Of a DNA stretch of 64,000 nucleotides, positions 6,841 to 20,753 are shown piece by piece. The translations under genes and the position numbers were made by a program. Each line of letters starts with the position of its first letter. Position 1 is the first letter of the stretch. This stretch comes from Anaerotruncus colihominis (lineage in GTDB: Bacteria; Bacillota; Clostridia; Oscillospirales; Ruminococcaceae), in contig CP102255.1 in assembly GCA_025146135.1 (NCBI GenBank), positions 2,542,001-2,606,000 of the forward strand, read 5' to 3'. The notes under the pieces are model-generated. The model was given only the letters and a program-made list of their open reading frames with translations, had not been told where the DNA came from and ran no database searches.

Positions 6841-6874
6841 AAAGCCCGATGGACCCCCATCGGGCTTTATTTTT
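6841..6874. terminator. Terminator between convergent genes
   Basis: AAAGCCCGATGG and CCATCGGGCTTT form a perfect 12-bp stem followed on the plus strand by ATTTTTT. It ends the acetyltransferase transcript and, with weaker T runs on the other strand, may also serve the leftward catabolic operon that ends at 6957. Confidence 0.88.
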
Positions 6875-6956: not shown

Positions 6957-8135
6957 TCAGTCCACGCGGTATTTTTCAATCGTGTCCTCACGCAGTTCGA
7001 TCCCCAGGCCAGGCTTCTGCGGCAAATAGACATAGCCGTCGGCTGCCATTTCAATCGGCTCGGTCAATAGCTCGTCGCGCAGCGGGTAAGGATTGCGGTC
7101 CATCTCCAAAATCCCCCGGTTGCTCAGGGAAGCCAGGAAATGGGCGTTTGCCGCGAGGCTCACGGCCGAAGAAAAAACATGCGGCATACAGGGCAGGCTG
7201 TTGGCCTGCGCATAATGGGCGATTCTGCGGCACTCGGTAAAGCCGCCGCTCCAGATCACGTCGGGCTGTACAATATCGATCGCGCGCTTGTCCATAAACT
7301 GCTTGAAGCGGAACAGCCCCACTTCAGATTCATAACCCGCAACCGGCATATCCAACGCACGGGCCAGCTCCGCCGAGCCGTCCACATTGTCCAGGCTGAG
7401 AGGTTCCTCCATCCAGAAAACCCCCATCTCCTGGAACTTTTTACCCATGCGGATTGCGGTGTATGTGTTCCAGACGTTGTTTACATCGACCATGATCCGC
7501 GCGCCATATTTCTTTGCCGCCTCGCAGCAGGCCCGTACCCGTTCCAGCTCCTCCTCCAGGGTATAAATGCATTTTTCCGGGCTGAGCATATTTTCAATCG
7601 GCGACATAAATACGTCCGGATTGCGCCCGATCTTGATTTTTGCATAGCGAAATCCCTGCCGGAAATAGCCTTCAGCCTCCGCCGCCAGTTTCTGCGCATC
7701 CTTGCCCACGCTGTAAAAGCCCGAACTGGCGTACGGCAGCAGCCGGTCGCTGTACCCGCCCAACAGCTTGTAAACCGGCAGGCCGGCTTTTTTGCCTAAA
7801 ATATCCCACAGCGCCACATCAATGCCGCTGAGGGCGGCGGTGATGATCCCGCCCCGCCCGTGCTGGCGGGTGCGGTCGTTGACCTTGCGCCAAATCCGTT
7901 CGATATTGGTCGGGTCCTCCCCCCTGACAAGATCGGCCAGCTCATGCTCAATCACATATTTCGTTGTCTCGGCAGGCCCGCCGAAGCAGGCCGACTCCCC
8001 AATTCCTTCGATCCCTTCGTCTGTTTTCACCTTGACGATCACCGCGCTGCGGGTATAAAAATAGTTTTGAGCGTCCGCGATCGCATTGTCATATTGGTAT
8101 CGCAGGATCATTGCGGAAACGTCCGTCACCTTCAT
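6957..8135 (-). CDS. Enolase-superfamily enzyme, mandelate racemase subgroup
   Basis: The 392-residue protein has the capping domain and the (beta/alpha)7-beta barrel of the mandelate racemase/muconate lactonizing family. These enzymes abstract the alpha proton of a carboxylate held by Mg2+. Expected catalytic residues are present: the KxK motif (K166, K168), metal ligands D217, E243 or E244 (WMEEP) and E269 (GYESE), and the Asp-His dyad D292 (QPDVIW) and H319 (MPHVF). The dyad places it with MR-type acid-sugar dehydratases or epimerases rather than MLE types. It is the last gene of the leftward catabolic operon, 34 bp after the racemase-like gene. The substrate is unknown, but it should be a carboxylate. 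Confidence 0.9.
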   Translation of the reverse strand: MKVTDVSAMILRYQYDNAIADAQNYFYTRSAVIVKVKTDEGIEGIGESACFGGPAETTKYVIEHELADLVRGEDPTNIERIWRKVNDRTRQHGRGGIITAALSGIDVALWDILGKKAGLPVYKLLGGYSDRLLPYASSGFYSVGKDAQKLAAEAEGYFRQGFRYAKIKIGRNPDVFMSPIENMLSPEKCIYTLEEELERVRACCEAAKKYGARIMVDVNNVWNTYTAIRMGKKFQEMGVFWMEEPLSLDNVDGSAELARALDMPVAGYESEVGLFRFKQFMDKRAIDIVQPDVIWSGGFTECRRIAHYAQANSLPCMPHVFSSAVSLAANAHFLASLSNRGILEMDRNPYPLRDELLTEPIEMAADGYVYLPQKPGLGIELREDTIEKYRVD

Positions 8136-8169
8136 CTCATCACATCCAAATCCTTTCAGTATTTCCCGT

Positions 8170-8826
8170 TTACAGATATTGCGCGAGCTGTGCGATCCCC
8201 ATTTCCACGCTCGTCAGCACCGGAACCCCCAGATCCTCCAGCGCGGAAGCCACGTCCACCATGCTGGCCTGTTCGAGCACGATCACATCGTAGCTGCCCG
8301 CAACCTCTCTTGCCTTCTCCACGATCAGCCGGTCGTGCGCCGCCTTGTCCCCCTCCAGATTGAGCGCCGCCCATGCGCCCTCGACAAGGATGGTGTCGAT
8401 TTGAACCTGCCCGCGTCCCATCTTTTCCGCCGCCTTCCGGGCAGACTGTGTGGAAGGCCCGAAGGTCAGTTCAGCCGTCACCAGCAGCGCGATCCGATCC
8501 CCCATCGTGGCGGCCCTTTCAAGCATCGGCCCATCAATTTTCAGGTATGGAATACCCACCGCGGGCTGCGCCGCATCCACCGCCGGCGCAATGGTGGTAC
8601 ACATGCAGACCGCAGCGGACGCGCCGTACCGTTCAGCAGTCACGCCGTAATCCGCGACCCGCTTTATAATATCCGGGGTGAGCTTTCCGCCGTTTTCCGT
8701 GATTTCCGGGATGATTCCGTCGTCCAGCAGATTGATGAGCTGCACGTCAGGAAATTGCCGGGCAAAAGCTTCCTTCATACCGGGGATAATTCCCGCAACG
8801 GTGGATACAAAAACAACCTTTTTCAT
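8170..8826 (-). CDS. Asp/Glu/hydantoin racemase family protein, second Cys missing
   Basis: A 218-residue protein of the two-lobed Asp/Glu racemase superfamily. The first lobe carries a cysteine loop (AVCMCTTIAP), where family enzymes have their first catalytic Cys. In the second lobe, where a CTG-type cysteine is expected, this protein reads VLEQASMVDVA, so the second acid/base Cys is replaced. It may therefore not be a two-base racemase. Related proteins include one-Cys decarboxylases and isomerases of the superfamily. The start at 8826 follows AAGGAAGG; the frame open from 8853 lacks a site. It is the third gene of the operon, 34 bp after the shikimate-dehydrogenase-like gene. Confidence 0.82.
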   Translation of the reverse strand: MKKVVFVSTVAGIIPGMKEAFARQFPDVQLINLLDDGIIPEITENGGKLTPDIIKRVADYGVTAERYGASAAVCMCTTIAPAVDAAQPAVGIPYLKIDGPMLERAATMGDRIALLVTAELTFGPSTQSARKAAEKMGRGQVQIDTILVEGAWAALNLEGDKAAHDRLIVEKAREVAGSYDVIVLEQASMVDVASALEDLGVPVLTSVEMGIAQLAQYL

Positions 8827-8860
8827 AGCAAGCCTTCCTTTCTCTATTTTCAAATAAGCC

Positions 8861-9703
8861 CTAAACAGTTGTGCCGCTTTGAAGGCGGTCGATCAGCTCC
8901 CGTACACAGTGGTCGGACGGTGTCCTTCCAAACCAGATTTCAAACGCACGTACCCCCTGGCAGGCATTCATCGGCTTGCCGATCCATGCAGGCAAACCGA
9001 GCGCACGCGCCGCAGGCACCAGCCGGGCGTCCGGATTGGAGTAATTCACATCGTAGACCGCCGCGCCCGGCCTGAGTTCTTTTAAAAATTCCAGAGAAAC
9101 AAAGTCGTCGTATCCGACCTGCCCCACCACGGAAGCATTGATAAACAGATCCGCGTCCCTACAGCAGCGGCATAAATCCTCCGCGGTGTATGGCACAGGA
9201 GCGAAACGCTGTCCAAACCGTTCGCACAGGCTTTGGGCCTGGTCCAAAAAGAGGTTGACCACACTGACCTGCTTTACCCCGTGCAGGCCGAGCTGATACG
9301 CGATCGAAAGCGCGACCCCTCCAGCGCCAAGCATCACCACACGCTTGCCCTCTATGGCGACGCCGAACAGCTCCAGCGCCTTCATCAGCCCCCATCCGTC
9401 GGTATTATAGGCGATCAGCCTGCCTTCCCGAACAAGGACGGTATTGGTCGATCCGCATTTCAGCGCCGAATCATCCGCTTCGTCGACGAATTCGAGCAGC
9501 TTCTGCTTATAGGGCATCGTGACATTAAATCCGTCCAGATGCGCCCGGCAAAAATCCACCTGCCCCTTCAACTGCTCCGGTTCAATGTTGAAAAGCGAAA
9601 AATCAATCTCCATTCCAATGTCCCGGGCGTATACCTCATAGACCGACGGGGTAATCGAATTGTGGATGTCCCGGGCAATCAGCCCGCAGCGATATTGCTT
9701 CAT
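8861..9703 (-). CDS. Shikimate/quinate dehydrogenase paralogue
   Basis: NAD(P)-dependent oxidoreductase of the AroE family (280 residues). Visible motifs are the catalytic lysine K66 in NVTMPYK, D102 in NTDGWG, and the Rossmann loop GAGGVA (126-131). The substrate-binding pair, normally SxS near residues 15-20, reads S16-x-T18 here; an SxT pair occurs in quinate-using relatives. With this operon context, the gene is more likely catabolic than the biosynthetic aroE. The start overlaps the stop of the reductase gene by 4 bp (ATGA type), so translation is probably coupled. Confidence 0.85.
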   Translation of the reverse strand: MKQYRCGLIARDIHNSITPSVYEVYARDIGMEIDFSLFNIEPEQLKGQVDFCRAHLDGFNVTMPYKQKLLEFVDEADDSALKCGSTNTVLVREGRLIAYNTDGWGLMKALELFGVAIEGKRVVMLGAGGVALSIAYQLGLHGVKQVSVVNLFLDQAQSLCERFGQRFAPVPYTAEDLCRCCRDADLFINASVVGQVGYDDFVSLEFLKELRPGAAVYDVNYSNPDARLVPAARALGLPAWIGKPMNACQGVRAFEIWFGRTPSDHCVRELIDRLQSGTTV

Positions 9704-11001
9704 TTTGCATCCCTTTCTTTTGTCCGGCCGCCTGTTTCCGCCTTCACACAGCGGATGGCCTTCCCGGTTTTTTTAATCCATGCCATACATCCGTTGCAGG
9801 TCGTACAGCAGCGTTCCCGTTTCATTCCGCCGCCTGTCAGAATATCCCGCGCATAGTCAGGATAACAGACCGGCTGGCGCCCGAACCCCGCAAAATCGAA
9901 CCACCCCTGTTCGATGCCGCCCGCGGCCACATTCGCGCCAAACTCCCGCAGCCATGTAAACGCCGAAGCCACAACAGCCGCTTGCGGAACAGCCTGTTTG
10001 ATCTGCCGGGTCAGCCGCAGCATCCGGTCGACTCCTGTAAGCGGATGCTCGGTCCGATAGATTTCTCCCCCCGTATCGGACGGGCGGATCACCTGCGGCG
10101 AACAGGCCCCAATTCCACAGGTGATGTTGAAAAGCCTCACCCCACGCTCAAAAAGCAGCTTGGCCAACCGGACCGGCTCCTCAAGGTCCGGAATCGCGGC
10201 TCCCTTTTGGGAAACGCCAAATCCATAGGGATAAGCAAGCGCGTCGTATACGTTGAGCCGGACCGCAACCTCAATTTCGGTATGCGCACGGATCTTTTCA
10301 ACCACATCCAGCAGAAAGCGCGCCCGGTTTTCAAAGCCGCCGCCATATCTGCCTTCCCGTTCCCGCGCCGCCAGCAGCTCATTGATGAGATAGCCGTGGC
10401 AGGCGCGCACGTCTACCGCGTCAAACCCCGCCTCCTGCGCAAGCTGTGCCGCGAGCAGATAATCGTCCTCCAGGCTTGAAAGCTCCCCGTCAGTCAAAAT
10501 CCGCTCATGTTCCTTTGGGATGAGAGGATTGTGAAACGCGCTTTCCGGTCCGGCGGCACTGTGCTGGCCGCTGTACCTTCCCGAATGAGTGAGCTGGACG
10601 ACCGTATAGGGCCGTCCCCAAGAATTGGCCGCCGTACGAATCTCGTCAGCAAGGCAGCGAAACCGGTCCACGTTTTCCCTGCGCAGCCAGAGCTGCGACG
10701 GATTAGAGCGCCCGGACGCGCATACGGAAACAGACTCCAGCCAGATCATTCCTGACATCCCGGCGGCGTAGGCCCGATACCTTGCCATGTTTTTTTCACT
10801 CGGCGAACCGTCCGGCAGGGCGTCAAAACCCTCTACAGGCTGTGCGGCCAAACGGTTTTCGATCTGCCTTTGGCCCAACCGGAGCGGCGTTTTGAGAATG
10901 CCTGTTTCCCGCGCAAAGGGGAGCTGTAAGCCCGCGATCTGGCGGTCGTGCAAAAGCTGCTCTGACGACTCATAGTCAAATATCCTGTGCTGCAAATCCA
11001 T
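9700..11001 (-). CDS. Old Yellow Enzyme-family flavin/Fe-S oxidoreductase
   Basis: FMN-dependent TIM-barrel reductase related to the N-terminal domain of 2,4-dienoyl-CoA reductase and other enoate reductases. It contains THSGRYSG, ACHGYLINELLAAREREGRYGGGFENRARF and VAVRLN. Near the C-terminus lies an iron-sulfur cysteine cluster (CTTCNGC, then a Cys about 12 residues later). It stops there, so the C-terminal FAD/NAD(P) domain of full-length 2,4-dienoyl-CoA reductases is absent and electrons must come from a partner. The ATG at 11001 has GGAGGG directly against it, which is poor spacing. The TTG two codons in (10995) sits 6 nt from that site and may be the true start. It is the first enzyme gene of the operon. 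Confidence 0.88.
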   Translation of the reverse strand: MDLQHRIFDYESSEQLLHDRQIAGLQLPFARETGILKTPLRLGQRQIENRLAAQPVEGFDALPDGSPSEKNMARYRAYAAGMSGMIWLESVSVCASGRSNPSQLWLRRENVDRFRCLADEIRTAANSWGRPYTVVQLTHSGRYSGQHSAAGPESAFHNPLIPKEHERILTDGELSSLEDDYLLAAQLAQEAGFDAVDVRACHGYLINELLAAREREGRYGGGFENRARFLLDVVEKIRAHTEIEVAVRLNVYDALAYPYGFGVSQKGAAIPDLEEPVRLAKLLFERGVRLFNITCGIGACSPQVIRPSDTGGEIYRTEHPLTGVDRMLRLTRQIKQAVPQAAVVASAFTWLREFGANVAAGGIEQGWFDFAGFGRQPVCYPDYARDILTGGGMKRERCCTTCNGCMAWIKKTGKAIRCVKAETGGRTKERDAK

Positions 11002-11015
11002 CCCTCCATTTTTAA

Positions 11016-11029
11016 ATACAAAAATGTAT
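11016..11029. promoter_or_regulatory. Candidate GntR operator upstream of the reductase operon
   Basis: ATACA-N4-TGTAT is a perfect inverted repeat lying 15 bp upstream of the reductase start and followed by a further TGCAT. A near-identical site, ATGCA-N4-TGTAT, lies upstream of the regulator gene at 11865-11878. Palindromes of this AT-rich kind are usual for FCD-type GntR regulators, so autoregulation and control of the adjacent operon are likely. Confidence 0.55.
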
Positions 11030-11080
11030 GCATTTTTTCATAAGAAAAGCGTCCCGCCTTTCCCAGGGGCGGAACGGAAT

Positions 11081-11758
11081 TCAGTCCTTGACCATCGGAC
11101 GCGGGTACCGCGTCATCAAAAGATTCTTTGTATCCTCGCGCGCAAGCTGCAAATGCAGCCGCATCTGCTCGCTGGCTCCGGCGCCATCATGCGCGTGCAG
11201 ACATTGAAGAATCCGCTCGTGTTCCGCAAGGCTCTCCTCGGTCCGATCCCGCGCACCCTCCGTCAAAAAGCGGATGCGCTGCTGCTGATCCTTGATCCGC
11301 CCGATGCAGGAGAGGATCACCCGGTTACCATGTATCCGAAGCAAGGCGCCATGAAACTCGTCATCCAGTTCGAAATAGCGCGCAAGGTCGCCCTGCCCCA
11401 CGGCCTGGCGCATCTGCCCGAGCAGGCTGTCCAGCCGTTCGATCTGCTCGGGGACAAGCGATTCGGCCAGCCGGGAAACCACCAGCCCCTCAAGCGCTTG
11501 GCGCGTTTCATAGATATCGTCAATCATCCGCCATGTAATTTCAGAAACACGGAACTTGCGGCCGTCGCTTTCCTCCACCAGGCCATCGTCCCGCAGACGC
11601 ACAACCGCCTCACGCACAGGGGTGCGGCTGATCCCGAAGTCCTTGGAAAGCTGCTGAACCATCAGGATCTGGCCGGGCATCAGCTCCAGGCTCACAATTT
11701 TATTTTTCAGTTCATTATAAACGCTCAAAGTAACGGGCTGGTGCTCCTGCTCGATCAT
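11081..11758 (-). CDS. GntR family transcriptional regulator, FadR/FCD type
   Basis: A ligand-responsive DNA-binding protein of about 225 residues. The N-terminal winged helix carries the GntR signature (YNELKNKIVSLELMPGQ, then GISRTPVREAVVRLRDDGLVE). The C-terminal half is an all-helical FCD domain with metal/ligand-type residues (ELDDEFHGAL, AEHERILQCL). FCD regulators usually sense small organic acids, which fits the enzymes next to it. The start is set at 11758, with GGAG 11 nt upstream; the frame also opens at 11800 but with no ribosome site. It lies between the two-component genes and the reductase operon, all leftward. Confidence 0.9.
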   Translation of the reverse strand: MIEQEHQPVTLSVYNELKNKIVSLELMPGQILMVQQLSKDFGISRTPVREAVVRLRDDGLVEESDGRKFRVSEITWRMIDDIYETRQALEGLVVSRLAESLVPEQIERLDSLLGQMRQAVGQGDLARYFELDDEFHGALLRIHGNRVILSCIGRIKDQQQRIRFLTEGARDRTEESLAEHERILQCLHAHDGAGASEQMRLHLQLAREDTKNLLMTRYPRPMVKD

Positions 11759-11848
11759 GCTGTCCCATTCTCCATTCCTTCTCAAATGCCTCGTCTGCAT
11801 TTTTCAAAAATATTATCGCATCTCCGTCTCCAAAATGCAACTAGAGAT

Positions 11849-11878
11849 TTGTACAAGATTTATAATGCAAAATTGTAT
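11849..11878. promoter_or_regulatory. Candidate GntR operators upstream of the regulator gene
   Basis: TTGTACAA (11849-11856) is a perfect palindrome, and ATGCA-N4-TGTAT (11865-11878) matches the operator half-sites at 11016-11029. Both lie in the 155-bp gap between the regulator gene and the response regulator gene. Confidence 0.45.
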
Positions 11879-11913
11879 TTATTTTTGTATACTATTTGTT
11901 TCTCACGTCCCCG

Positions 11914-13215
11914 CTACAGCACAGAGTGGTTATATTCGATAAACTCCTTAGGCGTGTAACCCGTCACCTTTTTAAAAATGCGGTTAAAGTAGGACGTATC
12001 GTTGAATCCTACCTTTTGCGCGATCACAAAAATCCGGTCCTGATTTTGCAGCAGCAGCTCCTTTGCCTTATCGATACGGACCATCAAAATATAATTAATA
12101 ATGCTGGTCTTTGTCTTTTCCTTAAATTTTTTGCACAGATGATACTTGCTGAAGTTGGAAATTCGCGCCAGATCATCCAGGCTGATCTGCTCACGGTAGT
12201 GCTGATGGATGTAATCGAGCACGTCGTCGATCGGATCGACCGGCAGCGCGCCGTCATCCGCCGCACGTTGGTAGATGCTCGGCAGGCTGTTGTCCTCCAG
12301 GTTTACGATCGTATCATAATAGAGGTGGTGATTGGCCTCCTGTTCCTCGGTGATCTCGATGTAAGAAGCGGGCAGCTCCTCCAGCCAGCGTGGCTGGTCA
12401 ATATAGATGCTGCATGTATTTTTGAGGTTGTTTTTGATGCTGATGCGGAACCGCTCGCAGATGCTCAACGCCCGGTCCTTTGGGGAAATGATGCTGCTTT
12501 TTGCCGCAACATGCAGCACGGTATAGAACACATGCCCCTCCGAATGAAACACGATACCGCCGCCATATTCCCCCACGATCTCTTGAAGGATATTCTCCAC
12601 CGCATAATCAAACAGGTCCCCAGCCCTAAAGCATGCGACGCATCCTGTGTAATTGTCCATCTGGATGGCAAGCAGAAAGAGCTGGCGGCTGTCGGGATCG
12701 ATCTGATGGGCCTGAAGATAGCCGCGCACCGCAGACACATTGTCCGTTTTGCCGCGCAGGAAGCTCAACAGCACCCGTTCGGGCGGAGCCTTTTCCGCCT
12801 CCCACAACTCCGCCCCATTGCGCTGCGAACGTGCATCCAGGCTCGCAACCGCCTTATCCAGCACAACGTCCAGCTCATCCGAATCCACAATAGAGCTTTT
12901 GAGCAGGTAATCAAACGCGCCCAGCCGCATCGATTCTTTAACATAATGGATATCGTTATGGCAGCTCAGGACAATGAACAGCAGGTCGGGAAAGCTGGCC
13001 TGCGCCTCCTGGATAAATTTCAGCCCATTGTAGTTGGGCATATACATATCCGTGATCACAATATCGGGGCGCAGGCTCTCAAGCAGCTCGAGCGCCTTGC
13101 CTCCGTCCGCCGCCTCCCCCGCCAGCACAAGCCCTTTTTTCTCCCAATCCACAAAGGATTTCAGGCCGCGGCGCACAAGGCTGTCGTCGTCCACCAGCAT
13201 CACCTTATAAGGCAT
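11914..13215 (-). CDS. YesN-type response regulator with AraC DNA-binding domain
   Basis: A 433-residue two-component regulator. The N-terminal receiver domain has acidic residues in LVDDD, the phosphoacceptor D56 in ITDMYMP, and the conserved Lys in DYLLK. A middle region of about 200 residues has no motif I recognise. The C-terminus (about 330-433) is an AraC double helix-turn-helix, with ISLDDLARISNFSKYHLCKKFK and VGFNDTSYFNRIFKKVTGYTPKEF. YesN-type regulators usually activate adjacent sugar or small-molecule importer genes, here the divergent ABC operon. The start at 13215 follows AAGGAAGGGG. The kinase gene lies 39 bp upstream. Confidence 0.93.
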   Translation of the reverse strand: MPYKVMLVDDDSLVRRGLKSFVDWEKKGLVLAGEAADGGKALELLESLRPDIVITDMYMPNYNGLKFIQEAQASFPDLLFIVLSCHNDIHYVKESMRLGAFDYLLKSSIVDSDELDVVLDKAVASLDARSQRNGAELWEAEKAPPERVLLSFLRGKTDNVSAVRGYLQAHQIDPDSRQLFLLAIQMDNYTGCVACFRAGDLFDYAVENILQEIVGEYGGGIVFHSEGHVFYTVLHVAAKSSIISPKDRALSICERFRISIKNNLKNTCSIYIDQPRWLEELPASYIEITEEQEANHHLYYDTIVNLEDNSLPSIYQRAADDGALPVDPIDDVLDYIHQHYREQISLDDLARISNFSKYHLCKKFKEKTKTSIINYILMVRIDKAKELLLQNQDRIFVIAQKVGFNDTSYFNRIFKKVTGYTPKEFIEYNHSVL

Positions 13216-13254
13216 TTTGCACCCCTTCCTTTCCATTTGTCCGCATTTGTCTGT

Positions 13255-14646
13255 TTACAGGGTGATTGGGATGGTAACTTCCACCAGCGTGTAACGTCCG
13301 TATTCGCTGCGGATCCCCAAGCCGTATTCCCTCCCACAGAGCAGCTTGATCCGTCTGTTTACATTGCCCAGGGCGACCCCCATATACCGGCCGGAGCTTT
13401 TATACCGGTTGCTCAACACCGCGCGGATGCGCTCCTTTTCGATCCCGATGCCGTTGTCCGCAACCCGGATATCGATCCGGTGTCCCCGCCGTGAAACGCT
13501 GATCTTAATCTGCCCGTTCTGGCGGTTGCAATTGATGAAGCCATGGTAGATGCTGTTTTCTACGATCGGCTGAAGAATAAACTTGGGGATTTTCATCTGG
13601 ATCAGCAGCACATCGATCTCAAAACTGTAGTCAAACACATCCCCAAACCGGATCTTCTGTGCGGTAAGATAAGCGTCTACATATCCCAGCTCCTCCTCGA
13701 TCGTAACAAGCTCGTCCTCATTGTGGGAGCAGGCCCTGAGCAGGCAATCGAGCGCGCGCACCGTTGCGATTACATCCTCTGTGCGTCCGTCCGAAGCGAG
13801 CCACTGGATATTGTTGAGGGTATTATAAATGAAATGCGAATTAATCTGGTTTTGCAGCACATCCAGTTCAGATTCCCGCTTTTGATCATTGAGCTGGTTG
13901 ATCTTGGCCAGGCTGTCCGAAAACTCCTGCGCGCGGCTGCGGTACGCATCGCACAGCCGCCCGATCTCATTTTTCCAGTCCAAATATCCTTCGGTACGGG
14001 TTGGCAGATCAGGATTGCGGATTTCATACACAAGCTGCTCCAGCGGGTCGGTCACAAGCCGCTTTAAAAGCAGATTCGCCCCGAACAGCATCGCCCCCGC
14101 AAACAGCATCGCCAGCAGGATCACCATCCAGAACCGTTCGACTGTTACCCGAAACTGCGCGGTTGGAAAGATGCACACAAGCGTCATCCCGTTTTGAAGC
14201 TTCGTGCACACATAGAGCAGTTGTCCGCGATAGAGGTCCTGAAACAGCAGGGTCCGGCTCGCTTCCCGCTGCACCTGCCCGAGCGCCTCCCATGAAAGGG
14301 GAAACGAATTTGTTTGCGGCGCAAGCTGGTAGTCCCGGCTGTACAGCGCCTCCAAGCCCTGGGTGATGTAAAGGGTGAATTGATAATGGTTTGTCAGCCA
14401 TGAGAGGCGCCGCTCCACCTCCTGCCCGATCTGCCCGGGCGTATGGCCGTCAATATCCTTTGCGGCGGCCACGCTGTCCGCGAGGCTCGCGGCGTATGTA
14501 TCCAGCACCAGGTCGCGGGAGGTGGATTCCAGCAGCAATCCACCGCATAGCACAGGCAGCGCCACGGCCAGCCCTGTCAGAGACAGGATCAGCCATCGAA
14601 CCGGCATATCCCTCAAAAACCCTCTCCTCCCAGCTCCGCCCGGCAT
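13255..14646 (-). CDS. YesM/LytS-type sensor histidine kinase
   Basis: A membrane sensor of 463 residues. A first transmembrane segment (about 17-40) and a second (about 172-194) enclose an extracytoplasmic domain of about 130 residues. A HAMP-like linker follows (RLVTDPLEQLVYEI). The His-kinase domain has the autophosphorylated H271 in NQINSHFIYNTLNNIQW, and the ATPase domain has PIVENSIYHGF and DNGIGI. This is the HPK7/8 architecture that pairs with YesN regulators. The start at 14646 is preferred because GGGAGG lies 8 nt upstream. The earlier in-frame ATG at 14673 falls just upstream of the predicted transcript start. Confidence 0.93.
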   Translation of the reverse strand: MPGGAGRRGFLRDMPVRWLILSLTGLAVALPVLCGGLLLESTSRDLVLDTYAASLADSVAAAKDIDGHTPGQIGQEVERRLSWLTNHYQFTLYITQGLEALYSRDYQLAPQTNSFPLSWEALGQVQREASRTLLFQDLYRGQLLYVCTKLQNGMTLVCIFPTAQFRVTVERFWMVILLAMLFAGAMLFGANLLLKRLVTDPLEQLVYEIRNPDLPTRTEGYLDWKNEIGRLCDAYRSRAQEFSDSLAKINQLNDQKRESELDVLQNQINSHFIYNTLNNIQWLASDGRTEDVIATVRALDCLLRACSHNEDELVTIEEELGYVDAYLTAQKIRFGDVFDYSFEIDVLLIQMKIPKFILQPIVENSIYHGFINCNRQNGQIKISVSRRGHRIDIRVADNGIGIEKERIRAVLSNRYKSSGRYMGVALGNVNRRIKLLCGREYGLGIRSEYGRYTLVEVTIPITL

Positions 14647-14675
14647 CAGCAGCCCCTCCCTTATTCGTTTCATTT

Positions 14676-14705
14676 ATTATATTACATAATGTCGACAAAA
14701 ATCAA
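14676..14705 (-). promoter_or_regulatory. Promoter of the two-component and catabolic genes
   Basis: On the minus strand TTGATT and TATAAT (14676-14681) are 18 bp apart. The predicted start near 14669 lies just upstream of the kinase ribosome site. Confidence 0.7.
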
Positions 14706-14877
14706 CGCATAATTGCATCATTATTTAACTTATTTTTAGCAAAGCACAAGATCGTTTTAAAAAAGCGTCCCTTTCGGGCATTTTCTCCATACAAAATTGG
14801 ATAATCATGTCCTCCGAGCATCTGTTTCATGGCGCCGGCTAGCATTTTTACAATGATAATCTTGGCAATCCTGTCCA

Positions 14878-14906
14878 TTTACACATTGCAGCAAGATATC
14901 TATAAT
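14878..14906 (+). promoter_or_regulatory. Promoter of the ABC importer operon
   Basis: TTTACA (14878-14883) and TATAAT (14901-14906) are separated by 17 bp. The start is expected near 14913, about 43 nt before the binding-protein gene. Confidence 0.75.
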
Positions 14907-14955
14907 AAAAGCAAGTAAATAATAAATTTTTAGCCAATTCGTCAGGAGGGGTATT

Positions 14956-16200
14956 ATGTCCAACCATCGAAAAGCCTTATCCATCTCCGCGTTCCTGCTT
15001 GCGGCGGCGCTTACTTTCAGCGGCTGCGGCGCAGGCTCCTCAGACCCCGCCCCGGCTGCCTCGGATGCGCCGGATGCTCCCGCTCCCGCTGTTTCCAGCG
15101 CGCCGGCCGGCGCCGGGGATACGGCGCCGGCCGGCGACCCTATCCGCATCGGGATTGTGACCACCCTTTCGGGCGCGAACGCGGGCCACGGCGAATACTG
15201 CAAGGAGGGGGCCGAGCTTTGGAAGGAGGATGTAAACGCCCGGGGCGGTATCCTCGGCCGTCCAGTCGAGCTGGTGTATGAGGACAACGGCGAGACAGAA
15301 CAGACCTATATGAACGCGATGGTCAAGGCTTTGAGCGACGATGACCTTTGCGCGGTCTATTCCAACGGATACAGCAACCAGATCACGCTGGTGCTGCCGG
15401 AAGTCGCAAACTACGAAATTCCGCTGCTTGCCGGCAACAGCAGCCAAGCCTGCCTTGACGCGAACAACGACTATTATTGGATGCTGCGCCTGTCGGACGC
15501 AAATGTCAGCCCCGCAATGGTGCTGGCCTGCCGCGACCAGCTTAACATGAAAAAACCTGCGATCCTCAATGTCAACGACAGCTATGGCCGCGGCATGGCC
15601 GACTTTGTTGTGAAGGCGATCGAGGAGAACGGCATGGAGCTTGCCATTCAGGTGGAATGCACGGCCGAGGAAAAGCAGTTCACCCCGATTCTCACACAGA
15701 TCGTCAACAGCGGCGCTGACGGGATCATCGCCATCAACCATCAGGATCAGGCCGCTTTGGTGATGATGCAGATCGAAGCGATGGACATTCAGCTCCCGCT
15801 GATGGGCTGCTCACAGTATGCGTCCGCGCTCGCGATGGATACGGCCGGCGAGGCGTCCAACGGCTGGTACTCGCTGGCCGACTGGTCCAACGAAGTGCAG
15901 ACCGAATCGGGCAAGGCGTTTGTCGAAGCATACCGCAAGGCTTACAACCGCGATTCGGACATGCAGTCCGTCTGCGCCTACGACGCGATGCTGCTGCTCG
16001 AGGACGCGATCACCCGCGCCGGTACGGACGATCCCAAGGCTGTAAATGAGGCGCTCAAGCAGACCAAGGACGTGGTGGGAGCGATGACCTCCTACACTTA
16101 TCTGGAGGGCGATCATTCGCTCGGAACTTCGATCATGCTTACCCAAACGCAGGATAAAAAGGGCGTTATGATCGATATGGTTGCAAAACCAGGGCTTTAA
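14956..16200 (+). CDS. ABC transporter substrate-binding lipoprotein, LivK type
   Basis: The 414-residue protein starts with a lipoprotein signal peptide (lipobox FSGC, Cys at about 24). An Ala/Pro/Ser-rich linker of about 35 residues tethers it to the membrane. The mature domain is a periplasmic-binding-protein type I fold: IRIGIVTTLSGANAGHGEYCKEGAELW, DVNARGGILGRPVELVYED and ILNVNDSYGRG. This family binds branched-chain amino acids, but also aromatic acids and other small carboxylates. Its place opposite a carboxylate-metabolising operon suggests a ligand other than Leu/Ile/Val. AGGAGGGG precedes the ATG. First gene of the importer operon. Confidence 0.92.
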   Translation: MSNHRKALSISAFLLAAALTFSGCGAGSSDPAPAASDAPDAPAPAVSSAPAGAGDTAPAGDPIRIGIVTTLSGANAGHGEYCKEGAELWKEDVNARGGILGRPVELVYEDNGETEQTYMNAMVKALSDDDLCAVYSNGYSNQITLVLPEVANYEIPLLAGNSSQACLDANNDYYWMLRLSDANVSPAMVLACRDQLNMKKPAILNVNDSYGRGMADFVVKAIEENGMELAIQVECTAEEKQFTPILTQIVNSGADGIIAINHQDQAALVMMQIEAMDIQLPLMGCSQYASALAMDTAGEASNGWYSLADWSNEVQTESGKAFVEAYRKAYNRDSDMQSVCAYDAMLLLEDAITRAGTDDPKAVNEALKQTKDVVGAMTSYTYLEGDHSLGTSIMLTQTQDKKGVMIDMVAKPGL

Positions 16201-16208
16201 GCCGCAGC

Positions 16209-16245
16209 ATCACCGGGAGCGCCGCGGGGCGGCGCTCCCGGTGAT
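16209..16245 (+). other. Intercistronic hairpin in the importer operon
   Basis: A strong 16-17 bp GC stem (ATCACCGGGAGCGCCGC with its complement, loop of about 4 nt) lies between the binding-protein and permease genes, with no T run after it. Such hairpins commonly protect the 3' end of the upstream mRNA segment and raise binding-protein levels over the membrane parts. Confidence 0.7.
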
Positions 16246-16277
16246 CCGCGCAAAGGACTGATTTGGGAGGGAACTCT

Positions 16278-17153
16278 GTGAACTTTGGAATCTTTTTGCA
16301 GCTTCTTGTAATCGGCCTTTCGATGGGCATGATCTATGCGATGATCTCGATGGGCATTGTGCTTCTGGTGCGCGCGGTGGGCGTGTTGAATTTTGCGCAG
16401 GGCGACCTCTTTATGCTCGGCGCTTATGTGACCTATGCTTTGACCTATCAGGCCCATCTGCCTCTTTACGCCATGGCGCTTGTCGCGCTGGTCATTTTCG
16501 CATTGTTCGGGACGCTGTTCATGTTTTCGGTCTACTGGCCGCTGCGCCGCTCCACCTGGTCCGCCACCGTGCTCATCAGCACACTGGGCGCCTCCGTTGT
16601 CATCAAGGAATTGGTAAAATTGATCTGGGGCACCGTGCCGCTTGTGTCAGAGCCGATTGTCAAGGGCGTGCTGGTCATCGGCACAGCGCGGCTGGAGTAT
16701 CAATACCTGTTCATCATTGTGATCGCCTCGGCCCTGATCCTCGGTGTTTTCTGCCTGTTTGACAAGCTGTATGCCGGCCGTGTGATGCAGGCCGCGGCGC
16801 AGGACAAATATGCCGCCGAGCTGTTGGGCATCCCGACGATTCTCACCACCATCGCCACCTACATCATCAGCATGTCGCTGGTCGGTATCGGGGGTTATCT
16901 GGTCGCCCCGCTCTTTTTGGTTTCGACATCACTGGGTTCGTTTATGCTCAAAGGCTTTGCCGGTATGGTCATCGGCGGAATCGGAAATGTCAAAGGGGCG
17001 GTGTTGGGCAGCCTGCTGATCGGAATCATCGAATCATTCGCCACCCTTTTCACCACCACCTACAAGGACGCGGTCGTGTTTATGGTTTTGATCGTGGTGC
17101 TGATTGTACGGCCGGAGGGCTTTTTCGGCCAGCTTATCAAAGAGAAAGCGTGA
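16278..17153 (+). CDS. ABC transporter permease, LivH type
   Basis: An integral membrane permease of 291 residues with about eight hydrophobic segments. It shows the LivH signatures LSMGMIYAMISMGIVLLVRAVGVLNFAQGDLFMLGAY, GFAGMVIGGIGNVKGAVLGS (the EAA-like coupling loop) and a final LIVVLIVRPEGFFG. It forms the heteromeric channel with the LivM-type protein. The start is GTG at 16278, with GGGAGG 8 nt upstream; the TTG at 16263 overlaps that site and is less likely. It lies 10 bp before livM. Confidence 0.92.
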   Translation: MNFGIFLQLLVIGLSMGMIYAMISMGIVLLVRAVGVLNFAQGDLFMLGAYVTYALTYQAHLPLYAMALVALVIFALFGTLFMFSVYWPLRRSTWSATVLISTLGASVVIKELVKLIWGTVPLVSEPIVKGVLVIGTARLEYQYLFIIVIASALILGVFCLFDKLYAGRVMQAAAQDKYAAELLGIPTILTTIATYIISMSLVGIGGYLVAPLFLVSTSLGSFMLKGFAGMVIGGIGNVKGAVLGSLLIGIIESFATLFTTTYKDAVVFMVLIVVLIVRPEGFFGQLIKEKA

Positions 17154-17163
17154 GGGGTAGCAT

Positions 17164-18165
17164 ATGAAAAAAATCCGTATTCTGCGGGGGACGCTGCTGG
17201 TGACCCTCGCTCTCGCCGCTTATCTGGTGCTGCCGAACCACTTGGGCAAATACATGATGACCGTTATGAACAGCGCGCTGATCTATTTTGTAGTCTGTCT
17301 CGGGATTCAGGTGATCCTCGGGATGGGCGGGATGGTTTCTTTTGCGGCTATCTCGTTTATGGGCGTAGGCGCATACGCGACCGCTATTTTCTCTATGAGG
17401 GCGGGGCTGCCAATCCTGCTTTCGGTGGCGGGCGCAATGGTGATTTCCGCTCTGTTCGCCCTGTTGATCGGCATGGTCCTTCTGCGTCTGAAGGGTACCT
17501 TCTTCACCTTCTCCACCGTCGCGCTGGTCCAGATTACATACAGCGTGTTCAACAACTGGCGGGCTGTCACCGGCGGGCCGGATGGAATTGCCGGTGTGCC
17601 GAACTTCTCAATCGGCGGCTTGCAGGCCAAAACATCCGATCAGAACTATCTGGTGCTGCTGACAGCCGCGATCCTCTGCGCATTGGTGGTCGTCAGGCTG
17701 CGCAAAACCAATCTCGGACGTGCGCTCAGTTCGGTGCGCGACAATGAGATCGCCGCGCAGGTGATGGGCGTCAACGTTTACAAGACCAAAGTCACCGCCT
17801 TTGTAATCGCTGCAATTTTCGCAGGACTGGGGGGCGCTTTGATGACCCATACCAACCATTTTGTCGGCGCATCCTCCTTCACCTTCGATCAGTCGACCAC
17901 ATTCGTTATTATGGCGATGCTTGGCGGCGTGACCAGCACGCCCGGCGTTTTTGTCGGCACGCTGCTTATCACGATGCTCCCTGAGTGGCTCAAACCGCTT
18001 CAGGAGTATATCCGCCTGTTTTACGGCCTTGGCGTTATGCTGCTGATGGTCTTTATGCCGATGGGGCTGGCCGGGTTGTATCGTAAAATTGCCGGGCAGG
18101 TCCGTGAACGCCTGCATCTGGGGTATAAAACGCGGATCGGCGCCGGCGGCCAGGCGGAGGTGTGA
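17164..18165 (+). CDS. ABC transporter permease, LivM type
   Basis: The second permease subunit (333 residues, about nine hydrophobic segments). Family features are GMGGMVSFAAISFMGVGAYATAI, NWRAVTGGPDGIAGVP, RLRKTNLGRALSSVRDNEIAAQVMGVNVYKTKVTAFVIAAIFAGLGGAL and the coupling loop AMLGGVTSTPGVFVG. The ATG has GAGGGG upstream. The gene is followed by the ATPase gene after 3 bp, typical of tight translational coupling in Liv operons. Confidence 0.93.
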   Translation: MKKIRILRGTLLVTLALAAYLVLPNHLGKYMMTVMNSALIYFVVCLGIQVILGMGGMVSFAAISFMGVGAYATAIFSMRAGLPILLSVAGAMVISALFALLIGMVLLRLKGTFFTFSTVALVQITYSVFNNWRAVTGGPDGIAGVPNFSIGGLQAKTSDQNYLVLLTAAILCALVVVRLRKTNLGRALSSVRDNEIAAQVMGVNVYKTKVTAFVIAAIFAGLGGALMTHTNHFVGASSFTFDQSTTFVIMAMLGGVTSTPGVFVGTLLITMLPEWLKPLQEYIRLFYGLGVMLLMVFMPMGLAGLYRKIAGQVRERLHLGYKTRIGAGGQAEV

Positions 18166-18168
18166 CGG

Positions 18169-18933
18169 ATGGAAAAGATTCTAAAGCTTAACAAGGTAAA
18201 TAAACGGTTCGGCGGCGTGGTTACCGCCCTGGATGTCTGTATGGAGCTGGAACCGGGTGCGATCCACGGCTTGATTGGTCCGAACGGTGCGGGCAAAACC
18301 ACCCTTCTCAACCTGATTTCCGGCATTTATGAAGTGGACAGCGGCTCCATCACCTTCATGGGGCGCGATATCACGCATATGCCGTCCCATGAGCGCGCGC
18401 ATCTCGGATTGGGGCGCACCTTCCAGACCCCGCGTTTCCTCGAACGCTCCAACATTGAGGAGAATCTTTTGGTCGCGGCCGATTTGGGGAAACGGGTCCC
18501 CTTCTGGAAATCTTTTATTTCAAGAAAGAGCCTGGATTTTCTTAACGACCTCGAGCATCTGACACAGCTTGCGGGATTCTCCTTTTGTCTGGAGGACGAG
18601 ATGGACAGCCTGACCTTTGGACAGAAAAAACTGTTGGAAATCATCCGGGCGATCCTGACACACCCCAAGGTGATTCTCGTGGACGAGCCGGCGGCGGGGT
18701 TGAACAACAGGGAGATTGAAAACGCGGTCAAGCTTCTGGAGATGGCTGCGCAGGAGATGGGCATCGGCATTATCCTGATCGAACATTCCATGGATATGAT
18801 TATGAATGTCTGCCAGCAAATCACGGTGCTGAATTTCGGAGAGGTGATCGCCTGCGGCACACCTGCGCAGGTATCCTCCAATGAGGACGTTATCACCGCC
18901 TATCTGGGGAGGGAGCGTAATGTTGAAAGTTAA
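18169..18933 (+). CDS. ABC transporter ATP-binding protein, LivG type
   Basis: A 254-residue ABC ATPase with Walker A GPNGAGKTT, Q-loop FQTPRF, a degenerate signature LTFGQKKLLEIIRAI (FGQKK instead of SGGQQ, common in LivG), Walker B VILVDEPAAGLN and the switch His in IEHSMD. It energises uptake at the inner face of the membrane together with the LivF-type subunit. Start after GGAGGTG. Its end overlaps the next gene by 14 bp. Confidence 0.93.
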   Translation: MEKILKLNKVNKRFGGVVTALDVCMELEPGAIHGLIGPNGAGKTTLLNLISGIYEVDSGSITFMGRDITHMPSHERAHLGLGRTFQTPRFLERSNIEENLLVAADLGKRVPFWKSFISRKSLDFLNDLEHLTQLAGFSFCLEDEMDSLTFGQKKLLEIIRAILTHPKVILVDEPAAGLNNREIENAVKLLEMAAQEMGIGIILIEHSMDMIMNVCQQITVLNFGEVIACGTPAQVSSNEDVITAYLGRERNVES

Positions 18934-19651
18934 GGACCTGCACGCGTACTATGGCTCGATCGAAGCCCTGCGCGGAATCGACCTGGAAGTATCCGATAAA
19001 AGCATCGTTTGTCTGATCGGTTCCAATGGAGCGGGAAAAACCACCCTGTTAAAATCGATCTCCGGTATGGTGCAGCACACCGGACGTATTGAATGGGACA
19101 GTGAAAATATCCGAAACTACAGCTCGGTGCAGATTGCCCGGCGCGGCGTGCTGCATGTCCCAGAGGGACGGCATGTTTTTCCCGGGCTTACGGTACAGGA
19201 AAACCTTGAGGTCGGTTGTATAAACTGGCGCGGCTTTTTTGGGAAAAAAAGGGACGATCAGGAGCTTGAATATGTGTTCAATATGTTTCCCCGGCTGGGG
19301 GAACGGCGCAACCAGCTTTCGTGGAGCCTTTCGGGCGGCGAGCAGCAGATGCTTGCCATCGGACGGGCGCTGATGGGCCGGCCCAAAATTCTGCTGCTCG
19401 ACGAGCCTTCGATGGGGCTTGCGCCGCTCGTAATCGAGGAGCTGTTTGAAAAGATTGTGGAAATCAATAACCAGGGCATGCCGATTCTGATGGTCGAACA
19501 AAACGCCCGTATCGCGCTTGAGGTTTCAGATTACGCCTATGTCATCAGCCAGGGCAGGATTGAGCTTTCCGGTCCGGCCAAGGAGCTGATCCACGACGAC
19601 CGGGTCATCAATGCCTATTTCGGCACTGGCGCGGGCAGCAAGCCCGCCTGA
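18920..19651 (+). CDS. ABC transporter ATP-binding protein, LivF type
   Basis: The second ATPase (243 residues): Walker A GSNGAGKTT, the LivF-specific RRGVLHVPEGRHVFPGLTVQENLEVG, signature LSGGEQQMLAIGRALM, Walker B ILLLDEPSMGLAP and VEQNARIALEVSD. The start is the ATG at 18920 inside the end of the LivG-type gene; GGAGGGAG lies 5-10 nt upstream. The frame stays open further up, but with no ribosome site. Confidence 0.93.
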   Translation: MLKVKDLHAYYGSIEALRGIDLEVSDKSIVCLIGSNGAGKTTLLKSISGMVQHTGRIEWDSENIRNYSSVQIARRGVLHVPEGRHVFPGLTVQENLEVGCINWRGFFGKKRDDQELEYVFNMFPRLGERRNQLSWSLSGGEQQMLAIGRALMGRPKILLLDEPSMGLAPLVIEELFEKIVEINNQGMPILMVEQNARIALEVSDYAYVISQGRIELSGPAKELIHDDRVINAYFGTGAGSKPA

Positions 19652-19674
19652 ACCGTCACAAAGGAGGTTCTTTT

Positions 19675-20559
19675 ATGAAGCTTGGCGCGCATACAATGCT
19701 CTGGCTTGACTGCCTTGGGGACGCGGATCTTTCCCTGCTCGACAGGATCTCCGCCTTCGGATACGACGCTGTGGAGGTGGTTGTCGGTGAGCGGCCGCTC
19801 TGTCCCCGTGCGCTTGCGGACCGGCTCGGCCGGCTTGGACTGTCCGCGTCCGTAAGCTGCGCAATCCCGCCGGAACGCGCCCCAGGCAGCCCTGACCCAG
19901 CTTCGCGCCATGCCGCGCTTCGTTTTTTTCGCCGTTGTTTTGAAACCGCCGCAGCGATCGGCGCAAGCAATTTTGTCGGTCCGCTCTATCTCAGCGGCCT
20001 GCCCGTCCGCCCGCGCACACAGGCGGAGCGCCAGACCGAATGGAGGAGCGCCGCAGACACTCTGCGCGAAGCAGCCAGAATCGCCTCGGATTACGGGGTT
20101 ACACTCTGCATCGAACCGCTCAACCGTTACAAGACCGATCTGATTAACACAGTGAGGCAGGGGATTTTAATGGTCGATGAAATCGGCCTGCCCAATGTCA
20201 AGCTGCTTTACGATACCTACCACGCCAATATCGAGGAGCGCAGCCTCACCGAAGCAATCGGGCGAATGGGAACCCGCTATCTCGGGGAGATTCATCTCTG
20301 TGAAAATGATAAAGGCGCGCCCGGAACGGGCCACATCGATTTTCCCGCCGTCGCCGCCACGCTGCGGCAAATTGGATTCGACGGATTCGCGGTCTTTGAG
20401 AGCTTTCCCCCATTCGGGAAGGACAATATCTGGCGGCAGCTCGCTCCCGATCAAGACAGCCTTGCGCAGGCAGCGGCGCGTTATCTGCGCGCCTTGTTCT
20501 GTCCCCCCAAGACTGAGCTTGCAGAAGGAAAGGGAACGGTTAAACGAGCATTCGTTTGA
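19675..20559 (+). CDS. Sugar isomerase/epimerase-type TIM barrel (tagatose 3-epimerase-like)
   Basis: The 294-residue protein belongs to the xylose-isomerase-like TIM-barrel superfamily. The stretch CIEPLNRYKTDLINT, with its catalytic Glu, is typical of D-tagatose/D-psicose 3-epimerases and hydroxypyruvate isomerases. The later LLYDTYHANIEE and GEIHLCENDKGAPGTGHIDF supply further metal ligands (Asp, His, Glu). Bacterial 3-dehydroshikimate dehydratases share the same fold, which matters given the shikimate-dehydrogenase-like gene in this island. The family alone does not decide. It is the last gene of the importer operon (23 bp after livF), with AAAGGAGG before the ATG and a terminator overlapping its end. 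Confidence 0.87.
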   Translation: MKLGAHTMLWLDCLGDADLSLLDRISAFGYDAVEVVVGERPLCPRALADRLGRLGLSASVSCAIPPERAPGSPDPASRHAALRFFRRCFETAAAIGASNFVGPLYLSGLPVRPRTQAERQTEWRSAADTLREAARIASDYGVTLCIEPLNRYKTDLINTVRQGILMVDEIGLPNVKLLYDTYHANIEERSLTEAIGRMGTRYLGEIHLCENDKGAPGTGHIDFPAVAATLRQIGFDGFAVFESFPPFGKDNIWRQLAPDQDSLAQAAARYLRALFCPPKTELAEGKGTVKRAFV

Positions 20560-20571: not shown

Positions 20572-20721
20572 GTGGCTTTTTAGCCACCGCAAAAACAGGC
20601 GCCGGCGCACCGGTAGGCAGCACGCAGCGCCTTGTAAGCAAGGCCATTTTCTCCGCGGAGCGCGGCTCTTTGCCGCCTGTAATCCGCCCCGGCCTATGGC
20701 CATAACAGACAAGCTGATAAA

Positions 20722-20753
20722 AAAGGCTTCCGCTGTGGCGGAAGCCTTTTTTC
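20722..20753. terminator. Bidirectional terminator after secG
   Basis: AAGGCTTCCGC and GCGGAAGCCTT form a perfect stem with a 4-nt loop and T runs on both strands. It lies 8 bp after the secG stop codon and also backs up the rightward importer operon. Confidence 0.92.

Follow-up and report, generated by a model that had tools for sequence, protein, structure and literature searches.

Gene content and organization of the island

The window analyzed here is a 64,000-nucleotide stretch of the Anaerotruncus colihominis genome (contig CP102255.1, positions 2,542,001 to 2,606,000), and the subject of this work is a block of 13 contiguous genes at window positions 6957-20559 (approximately 2.549-2.563 Mb of the 3.56 Mb single-contig genome) that is arranged as two divergent units. 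The evidence presented below suggests, with a probability that we put at about 0.55, that this island is responsible for the catabolism of an acid sugar, which would pass through a 2-keto-3-deoxy acid and yield pyruvate plus a sugar phosphate. An earlier note on this DNA had described the block as an uptake-and-catabolism island for a small carboxylate; all the genes it named are present as open frames, and no gene besides the 13 was seen inside the block when the open reading frames were read, in agreement with the statement that no other metabolic genes interrupt it.

The minus-strand unit starts with genes for a YesM-type sensor kinase (13255-14673; Pfam His_kinase, 77 bits, and HATPase_c), a YesN-type response regulator (11914-13236; Response_reg, 79 bits, and an AraC-type helix-turn-helix domain) and a GntR/FCD regulator (11081-11800; FCD, 105 bits, and GntR, 56 bits). 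These are followed by four genes, hereinafter the core, that encode a flavin mononucleotide (FMN) ene-reductase-type protein (OYE, for Old Yellow Enzyme, 433 amino acids; 9700-11001; Oxidored_FMN, 105 bits), a dehydrogenase paralog of the AroE/YdiB type (ARO; 8861-9703; Shikimate_dh_N, 64 bits, and NCBIfam), a protein of the Asp/Glu/hydantoin racemase superfamily (RAC; 8170-8853; Asp_Glu_race, 59 bits) and a predicted acid-sugar dehydratase or cycloisomerase of the mandelate racemase (MR) subgroup of the enolase superfamily (ENO; 6957-8135; MR_MLE_N and MR_MLE_C, the latter with 213 bits); the OYE and ARO genes overlap by 4 bases. The plus-strand unit encodes a Liv-type substrate-binding lipoprotein (SBP; 14956-16200; Peripla_BP_6, 193 bits), LivH- and LivM-type permeases (16263-18165, with open reading frames at 16263-17153 and 17164-18165), LivG- and LivF-type ATPases (18169-19651, with open reading frames at 18169-18933 and 18881-19651) and a TIM barrel protein of the ketose 3-epimerase family (TIM; 19675-20559; AP_endonuc_2, 140 bits). 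Of the 13 proteins, nine were covered by the Pfam and NCBIfam scans; the remaining four, namely the Liv permeases and ATPases, were named from reading and from tblastn matches to their counterparts in the related island L015 (77% for LivH, 58% for LivM, 69% for LivG and 77% for LivF), and the LivM counterpart of another island genome (G819) matches BPD_transp_2.

A conserved, patchily distributed core

The core genes, OYE-ARO-RAC-ENO, are found together in five genomes, namely the window genome (G000) and G819, G820, G384 and G024; the carriers of the island are a few clostridial bacteria. Because the core recurs in four other genomes, as found in the search for the same gene set in other Clostridia that the earlier note had suggested, the association goes beyond chance: the block is a real, conserved, co-inherited and patchily spread unit. 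A scan of genome contigs with the OYE protein yielded 83 relatives, with 80 loci kept; relatives of both ARO and RAC lie beside OYE in three of these loci (L013, L014 and L015), and L013 and L015 also include an ENO relative within the DNA stretches examined. L014 belongs to G024 (identical match positions), and G384 as well as the second part of the G024 island were found by genome searches. The core of G024 is split over two contigs, each of which ends in a part of a RAC2 gene; the two contigs appear to adjoin each other.

Across the islands, the identity to the window proteins is 71-73% for ENO, 59-68% for SBP (alignments of 351-410 residues with the proteins from G819, G820 and G024), 52-54% for OYE, 53-58% for ARO and 48-53% for RAC. 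The five island OYEs form a single clade (support 100/98) in an 88-row, midpoint-rooted tree in which several of the island rows are long. OYE-family matches at E <= 0.001 were detected in 38 of 100 relatives, with identity above 50% only in the window genome and G024. At stricter thresholds, SBP matches (E <= 1e-40) came from a single genome, that of the window, among 11 of the genus, ARO matches (E <= 1e-70) from two of 394 genomes of the order, one of them the window's, and ENO matches (E <= 1e-120) from one of 391 genomes of the class, again the window's; the hit lists of these three samples do not contain the known carriers G024, G819 and G820, so that they yield no true frequency. The GC content of the island genes, overall and at third codon positions (GC3), is similar to that of the neighboring genes; foreign base composition was thus rejected as a sign of horizontal gain, which leaves the patchy occurrence as the argument for such gain.

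One conceivable explanation is that two unrelated modules happen to lie side by side, namely an amino-acid importer of the Liv type together with YesMN, and an operon of enzyme genes. SBP resembles Leu/Ile/Val-binding proteins (best NCBIfam score of 84 bits, with a cutoff of 477), and the G384 core is accompanied by DctP/DctM-like genes, with no Liv genes in the stretch read. However, the window, G819 and G820 each have the Liv genes and the core in a single block, and G024 has them on two contigs, in three gene orders and with SBPs 59-68% identical to that of the window, making a chance juxtaposition highly unlikely.

A kinase and an aldolase linked to the core

In all four other islands (G820, G819, G384 and G024), genes for KdgK (2-keto-3-deoxy-sugar-acid kinase) and 2-keto-3-deoxy-6-phosphogluconate (KDPG) aldolase are located near the core, within about 15 kb (about 10-17 kb in G384), those of G024 on the second contig. 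The aldolases were confirmed by PF01081, the island aldolase being the sole match of this kind in G819, the kinase-aldolase pair of G819, located at L109:8032-9726, by NCBIfam, and the remaining KdgKs by 54-77% similarity to the KdgK of G819.

The G819 island (L013 and L109) has the order KdgK-OYE-ARO-RAC-RAC2-ENO, VOC, GntR, YesN, YesM, SBP, LivHMGF, KDPG aldolase, KdgK, and that of G820 (L015) has the order KdgK, KDPG aldolase, LivFGMH, SBP, then OYE-ARO-RAC-ENO-VOC; the G024 island encompasses like kinds of genes, together with two KdgK genes, an aldolase, a second ARO and a YhcH-like gene. In G384, the core shows a different order and comes with two aldo/keto-reductase-type genes, an RraA-like protein and a LacI-type gene; a divergent run in this genome includes, by reading, transketolase-, FGGY-kinase- and DctP/DctM-like genes, followed by KDPG aldolase and KdgK. 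GntR-type genes also adjoin the core in L013 and G024. The importer and the regulators vary between the islands, while the kinase and the aldolase stay linked in all four. The position after LivF is occupied by TIM in the window, by KDPG aldolase and then KdgK in G819 and G820, and by KdgK in G024.

The window genome contains PF01081 matches at three places that are unlinked to the island, one of them beside a PfkB-type kinase. At about 2653819-2655161 of its contig C1 (L113 and L162), a KDPG aldolase match that falls into two parts is located near a match to a PfkB-type kinase that contains an in-frame stop, as if this were a decayed kinase-aldolase pair or the result of sequence errors. Another possible sugar-acid locus of this genome (L111, C1:62000-75000) features a row of genes for dehydrogenase-type and Gfo/Idh-type proteins, a PfkB kinase and KDPG aldolase.

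ENO, RAC and TIM and their relatives

The best curated NCBIfam model for ENO is arabinonate dehydratase (291 bits, with a cutoff of 650), and the two best matches in PDB are AtGCI (4ggb) and DauB (5olc), whose substrates are a sugar-acid lactone and an anhydro sugar acid, respectively (PMC5698469). The overall similarity between ENO and AtGCI is modest (186 bits in two stretches), and the comparison concerns the catalytic residues: K168, D217, E243, E269 and H319 of ENO (counted by hand) align with the published AtGCI active-site residues K166, D194, E220, E246 and H296 (PMC5698469). This K, D, E, E, H set is retained in all five island ENOs, and with the catalytic set complete, ENO can be predicted to function as an acid-sugar dehydratase or cycloisomerase. 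The 3,6-anhydro-D-galactose route of Zobellia (DauA-D) similarly relies on an MR-type enzyme, whose active site is of the same kind, to produce a 2-keto-3-deoxy acid and ends with a kinase and an aldolase (PMC5698469). However, DauA is an aldose dehydrogenase, no OYE, AroE-type or racemase-type enzyme is among DauA-D, and the route does not need preparation of the OYE/ARO type (PMC5698469); the window block, conversely, has these three enzymes and lacks the kinase and the aldolase. The plasmid-borne relatives of ENO, all with less than 60% identity, lie in varied loci that indicate no substrate.

The structural model of RAC (predicted local distance difference test, pLDDT, 88.5; from 5 sequences) matches hydantoin, glutamate and aspartate racemases. 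Cys85 is conserved in all six aligned rows, and the position that we take to be the second catalytic Cys site of the superfamily is occupied by Gln195 in five rows and by His in the paralog L013b, so that RAC does not have the two-Cys set of a two-base Asp/Glu racemase. A phylum-level search yielded 11 RAC matches outside the window, nine of which were fetched with flanks, and ten chosen proteins were scanned over the nine loci. In four of these loci, the RAC relatives (30-37% identical) are encoded near DUF1537 acid-sugar kinases, and no such kinase was seen in L142, L143, L144, L146 and L149; the window island differs from the former group in that it contains no DUF1537 kinase. Among the plasmid-borne relatives, the one from Haladaptatus lies near a four-carbon acid sugar kinase, the one from Deinococcus has class II aldolases nearby, the one from Rhizobium is found in an amino-acid-type context with a 3-oxo-tetronate kinase about 8 kb away, and the neighbors of the one from Sinorhizobium show no clear theme.

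For TIM, the best of nine matched NCBIfam models is D-psicose 3-epimerase (146 bits, below the curated cutoff of 300), and the top PDB matches are epimerases of ketoses. The name 3-dehydroshikimate dehydratase is absent among the nine NCBIfam and 31 PDB matches, although NCBIfam may hold no such model. TIM is also 37% identical, over 276 amino acids, to the TIM of locus L098 in genome G004, which combines OYE, Liv and IlvD genes.

ARO and the hydroaromatic alternative

In an alignment with AroE proteins, S16, K66, N87 and D102 of ARO are present in all six rows and Q249 in five; these residues presumably have the same catalytic and substrate-related roles as in AroE. Thus, the AroE-type Lys and Asp are retained throughout, along with most of the substrate-type residues, the substitutions being Leu for T18 in L096, Thr for N60 in L096 and ARO2, and Ser for T62 and His for Q249 in ARO2. 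ARO resembles the AroE/YdiB shikimate and quinate/shikimate dehydrogenases in family and in these residues, but differs from them in having Thr (Leu in L096) in place of the second Ser, in being encoded among catabolic-type genes, and in scoring below the cutoff with all listed NCBIfam models. A second full-length AroE homolog is encoded elsewhere in G000, G384, G819 and G024 (only weak partial hits were obtained in G820), that is, in four of the five genomes, and ARO is therefore a paralog, as the earlier note had proposed. The second, more divergent ARO of the G024 island (L158:6460-7320) is 44-49% identical to the others, with His replacing the conserved Gln.

As the substrate, the earlier note had listed quinate, shikimate or a dihydro derivative next to a sugar acid. 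In a hydroaromatic route, quinate, shikimate or a relative would enter the cell, ARO would oxidize a ring alcohol, OYE would reduce a ring C=C bond, and the remaining enzymes would open or further reduce the ring. Such a route would be compatible with the AroE substrate residues kept in ARO and with the Arg of OYE (see below), which would suit 3-dehydroshikimate, an enone with a carboxylate; moreover, Liv-type binding proteins are known for aromatic acids, and type II AroQ-like genes found beside other aro-type genes in G819 and G024 could serve it. However, type I dehydroquinate dehydratase was detected in none of the five island genomes by a search that was positive in seven of 14 control genomes, TIM matches ketose 3-epimerases, and the ring products would offer no primary hydroxyl to the linked KdgK. 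Given the linked KdgK and aldolase and the negative result for the type I enzyme, quinate and shikimate were set aside as the first choice and appear distinctly unlikely, whereas the sugar-acid option is strengthened by the kinase and aldolase of the four other islands.

A short Fe-S Old Yellow Enzyme

The island OYE combines an FMN TIM barrel with a catalytic-type Tyr (Y204), as members of the Old Yellow Enzyme family do; it is a short form with a 4Fe-4S-type Cys motif, CxxCxxC...C. R199, H202, Y204, C399, C402, C405 and C418 are present in all five island OYEs, and C201, H202 and Y204 are invariant in a 39-row alignment. The His-His or His-Asn substrate pair of Old Yellow Enzymes is not found in the island proteins, which have Arg199 in the first and His202 in the second substrate position; three aligned OYE sequences have His in both. 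The predicted structure (pLDDT 87) matches Old Yellow Enzymes and superposes best, among the 50 matches listed, on 2-naphthoyl-CoA reductase (6qkg; query template modeling score of 0.73). Compared to that enzyme, the island OYE lacks the C-terminal FAD/NAD domain, has Arg in place of the first substrate His and shows only about 20% identity. Long forms of 867-1004 amino acids account for 56 of the 98 proteins of the OYE cluster, and in two long planctomycete proteins that were scanned, the FMN domain is followed by Fer4_20 and Pyr_redox_2 domains, indicating that an electron-input partner is fused in such proteins and absent in the island OYE.

A predicted acid-sugar pathway

Three features, namely the linkage of kinase and aldolase genes, the intact acid-sugar active site of ENO and the neighborhoods of RAC relatives with acid-sugar kinases, suggest that an acid sugar is converted to a 2-keto-3-deoxy acid, and the presence of OYE and ARO suggests a starting compound that is unsaturated or needs prior re-oxidation. 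From these observations, we infer the substrate class, the order and direction of the steps and the activities of all enzymes as follows. The YesMN pair and the GntR/FCD regulator would sense the acid sugar, which the Liv-type importer would bring in. OYE might then reduce an activated C=C bond (enoate or enone), with its Arg possibly holding the carboxylate, ARO would catalyze an NAD(P)(H)-dependent alcohol-ketone interconversion, and RAC could act at a carbon next to a carboxylate. ENO would remove water or open a ring ether to yield the 2-keto-3-deoxy sugar acid, which KdgK and KDPG aldolase, in the window genome supplied by genes elsewhere, would convert to pyruvate and a sugar phosphate; TIM may, in the window genome, epimerize a ketose that enters or leaves the route.

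The substrate is most likely a small C6 acid sugar that is oxidized, unsaturated or cyclic. A 4,5-unsaturated uronic acid, with its shikimate-like shape, could be a suitable compound for OYE and ARO, but in this case a different intermediate would be required for ENO. For now, the block is best filed under acid-sugar catabolism with three preparatory enzymes that this assignment leaves unexplained. A bolder and rather unlikely scheme would join hydroaromatic-type and Entner-Doudoroff chemistry in a new anaerobic route. Its substrate, an unsaturated carboxylic acid with a ring, either shikimate-like or a 4,5-unsaturated uronic acid, would be reduced by the standalone Fe-S OYE, re-oxidized by the AroE-derived dehydrogenase and opened by the enolase-superfamily enzyme to a 2-keto-3-deoxy acid. 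As the earlier note had surmised, no matching pathway was found in the literature, and the searches, the coverage of which does not extend to many subscription papers, returned no published work with this gene set.

Several observations weigh against the acid-sugar pathway. The window block contains neither KdgK nor the aldolase nor an aldose dehydrogenase, and no close homolog of the G819 KdgK was found in the window genome (the best match, 29%, extends over part of that protein). In G384, KdgK and the aldolase lie apart from the core, at a distance of about 10-17 kb, in a divergent run that also includes other transporter-like genes. Importers of the Liv type are unusual for sugar acids, and G384 shows that the importer and the core can part. 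The earlier note had expected the enzyme genes not to occur in unrelated contexts without the importer, and this held in part: the core of G384 has, by reading, DctP/DctM-like and not Liv genes nearby, and OYE relatives occur alone in other contexts. Most of the AroE substrate residues are kept in ARO, which would suit a carbocyclic or hydroaromatic acid as well, and RAC relatives are also found in amino-acid-type and unclear contexts. Finally, other clostridial OYE relatives lie in small clusters with genes for a short-chain dehydrogenase/reductase (SDR) and a fumarate-reductase-like flavoprotein, some on short contigs, in which no KdgK or KDPG aldolase was seen; hence OYE alone does not mark an acid-sugar route.

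For a carbon source of clostridial bacteria that has not been described so far, the island supplies a co-inherited set of genes that can be tested. It also offers a first clue to the function of the Fe-S Old Yellow Enzyme branch, which is found in many Planctomycetota, often near KDPG aldolases. If the ene-reductase and the AroE paralog indeed prepare a sugar acid, this would be a new kind of substrate for both families.

Putative regulatory sites

The two best promoter-like sites of the region fall within the divergent gap at 14674-14955, one on the minus strand (14705-14676, 10/12) and one on the plus strand (14878-14906, 11/12); these are consensus matches only, and over the region such sites are not enriched (9 compared with 8.2 in shuffles). 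Terminator-like hairpins, listed on the plus strand, are located beyond both ends of the block, at 6841-6868, where the hairpin may belong to a neighboring plus-strand gene, and at 20719-20752; the region has 21 terminator-like sites, compared with 14.7 in shuffles. A shared GntR operator was considered and not used: the window contains one TTGTATACTA site (11885), and L013, L015 and L109 contain none.

Contexts of OYE relatives outside the islands

Among 99 OYE loci, a set that includes some genes fetched twice, the OYE relatives from outside the islands, mostly planctomycete, have a KDPG aldolase nearby at 45 loci and KdgK at 12. Over all 99 loci, SDR-type genes are found near OYE at 64, a fumarate-reductase-like flavoprotein at 50 and an aldolase at 46. 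In planctomycete loci such as L067:9962-17655 and L074:9953-17285, OYE is fused to a GltD-like domain and followed by genes for an SDR, KDPG aldolase, a fumarate-reductase-like flavoprotein and KdgK; to our knowledge, no function has been assigned to this row of genes.

The diversity of these contexts bears on an alternative in which the substrate is a glycoside or another derivative of a sugar acid: OYE, ARO and RAC would strip or repair an unusual group, for instance, once a 3-keto group has formed and elimination has taken place, and ENO, KdgK and the aldolase would process the released ordinary aldonate. The sugar-type loci that harbor OYE relatives differ from one another (FGGY kinase with UlaE/AraD-like genes; IlvD; KDPG aldolase), as though OYE performed a single task on various sugars, and an AroE-type oxidation would fit the 3-hydroxyl of a uronic acid ring. 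However, no glycoside hydrolase, esterase or known deglycosidase was recognized in the window block, and we regard this alternative as unlikely compared to the acid-sugar pathway described above.

In L097 and L099, OYE relatives are encoded beside an FGGY kinase and AraD-like genes, and L097 also has a UlaE-like TIM; such combinations are known from pentulose or ascorbate-type routes. In the 88-row tree, the island clade has the L097 protein, on a long branch, as its sister. In the genus of the window, L098 (G004:C3:1377000-1396900) encodes a Liv-type importer, an IlvD/EDD dehydratase, TIM, OYE, a zinc alcohol dehydrogenase, an SDR, a flavoprotein, a class II aldolase and an FGGY kinase, and is possibly an analogous acid-sugar locus with a different dehydratase.

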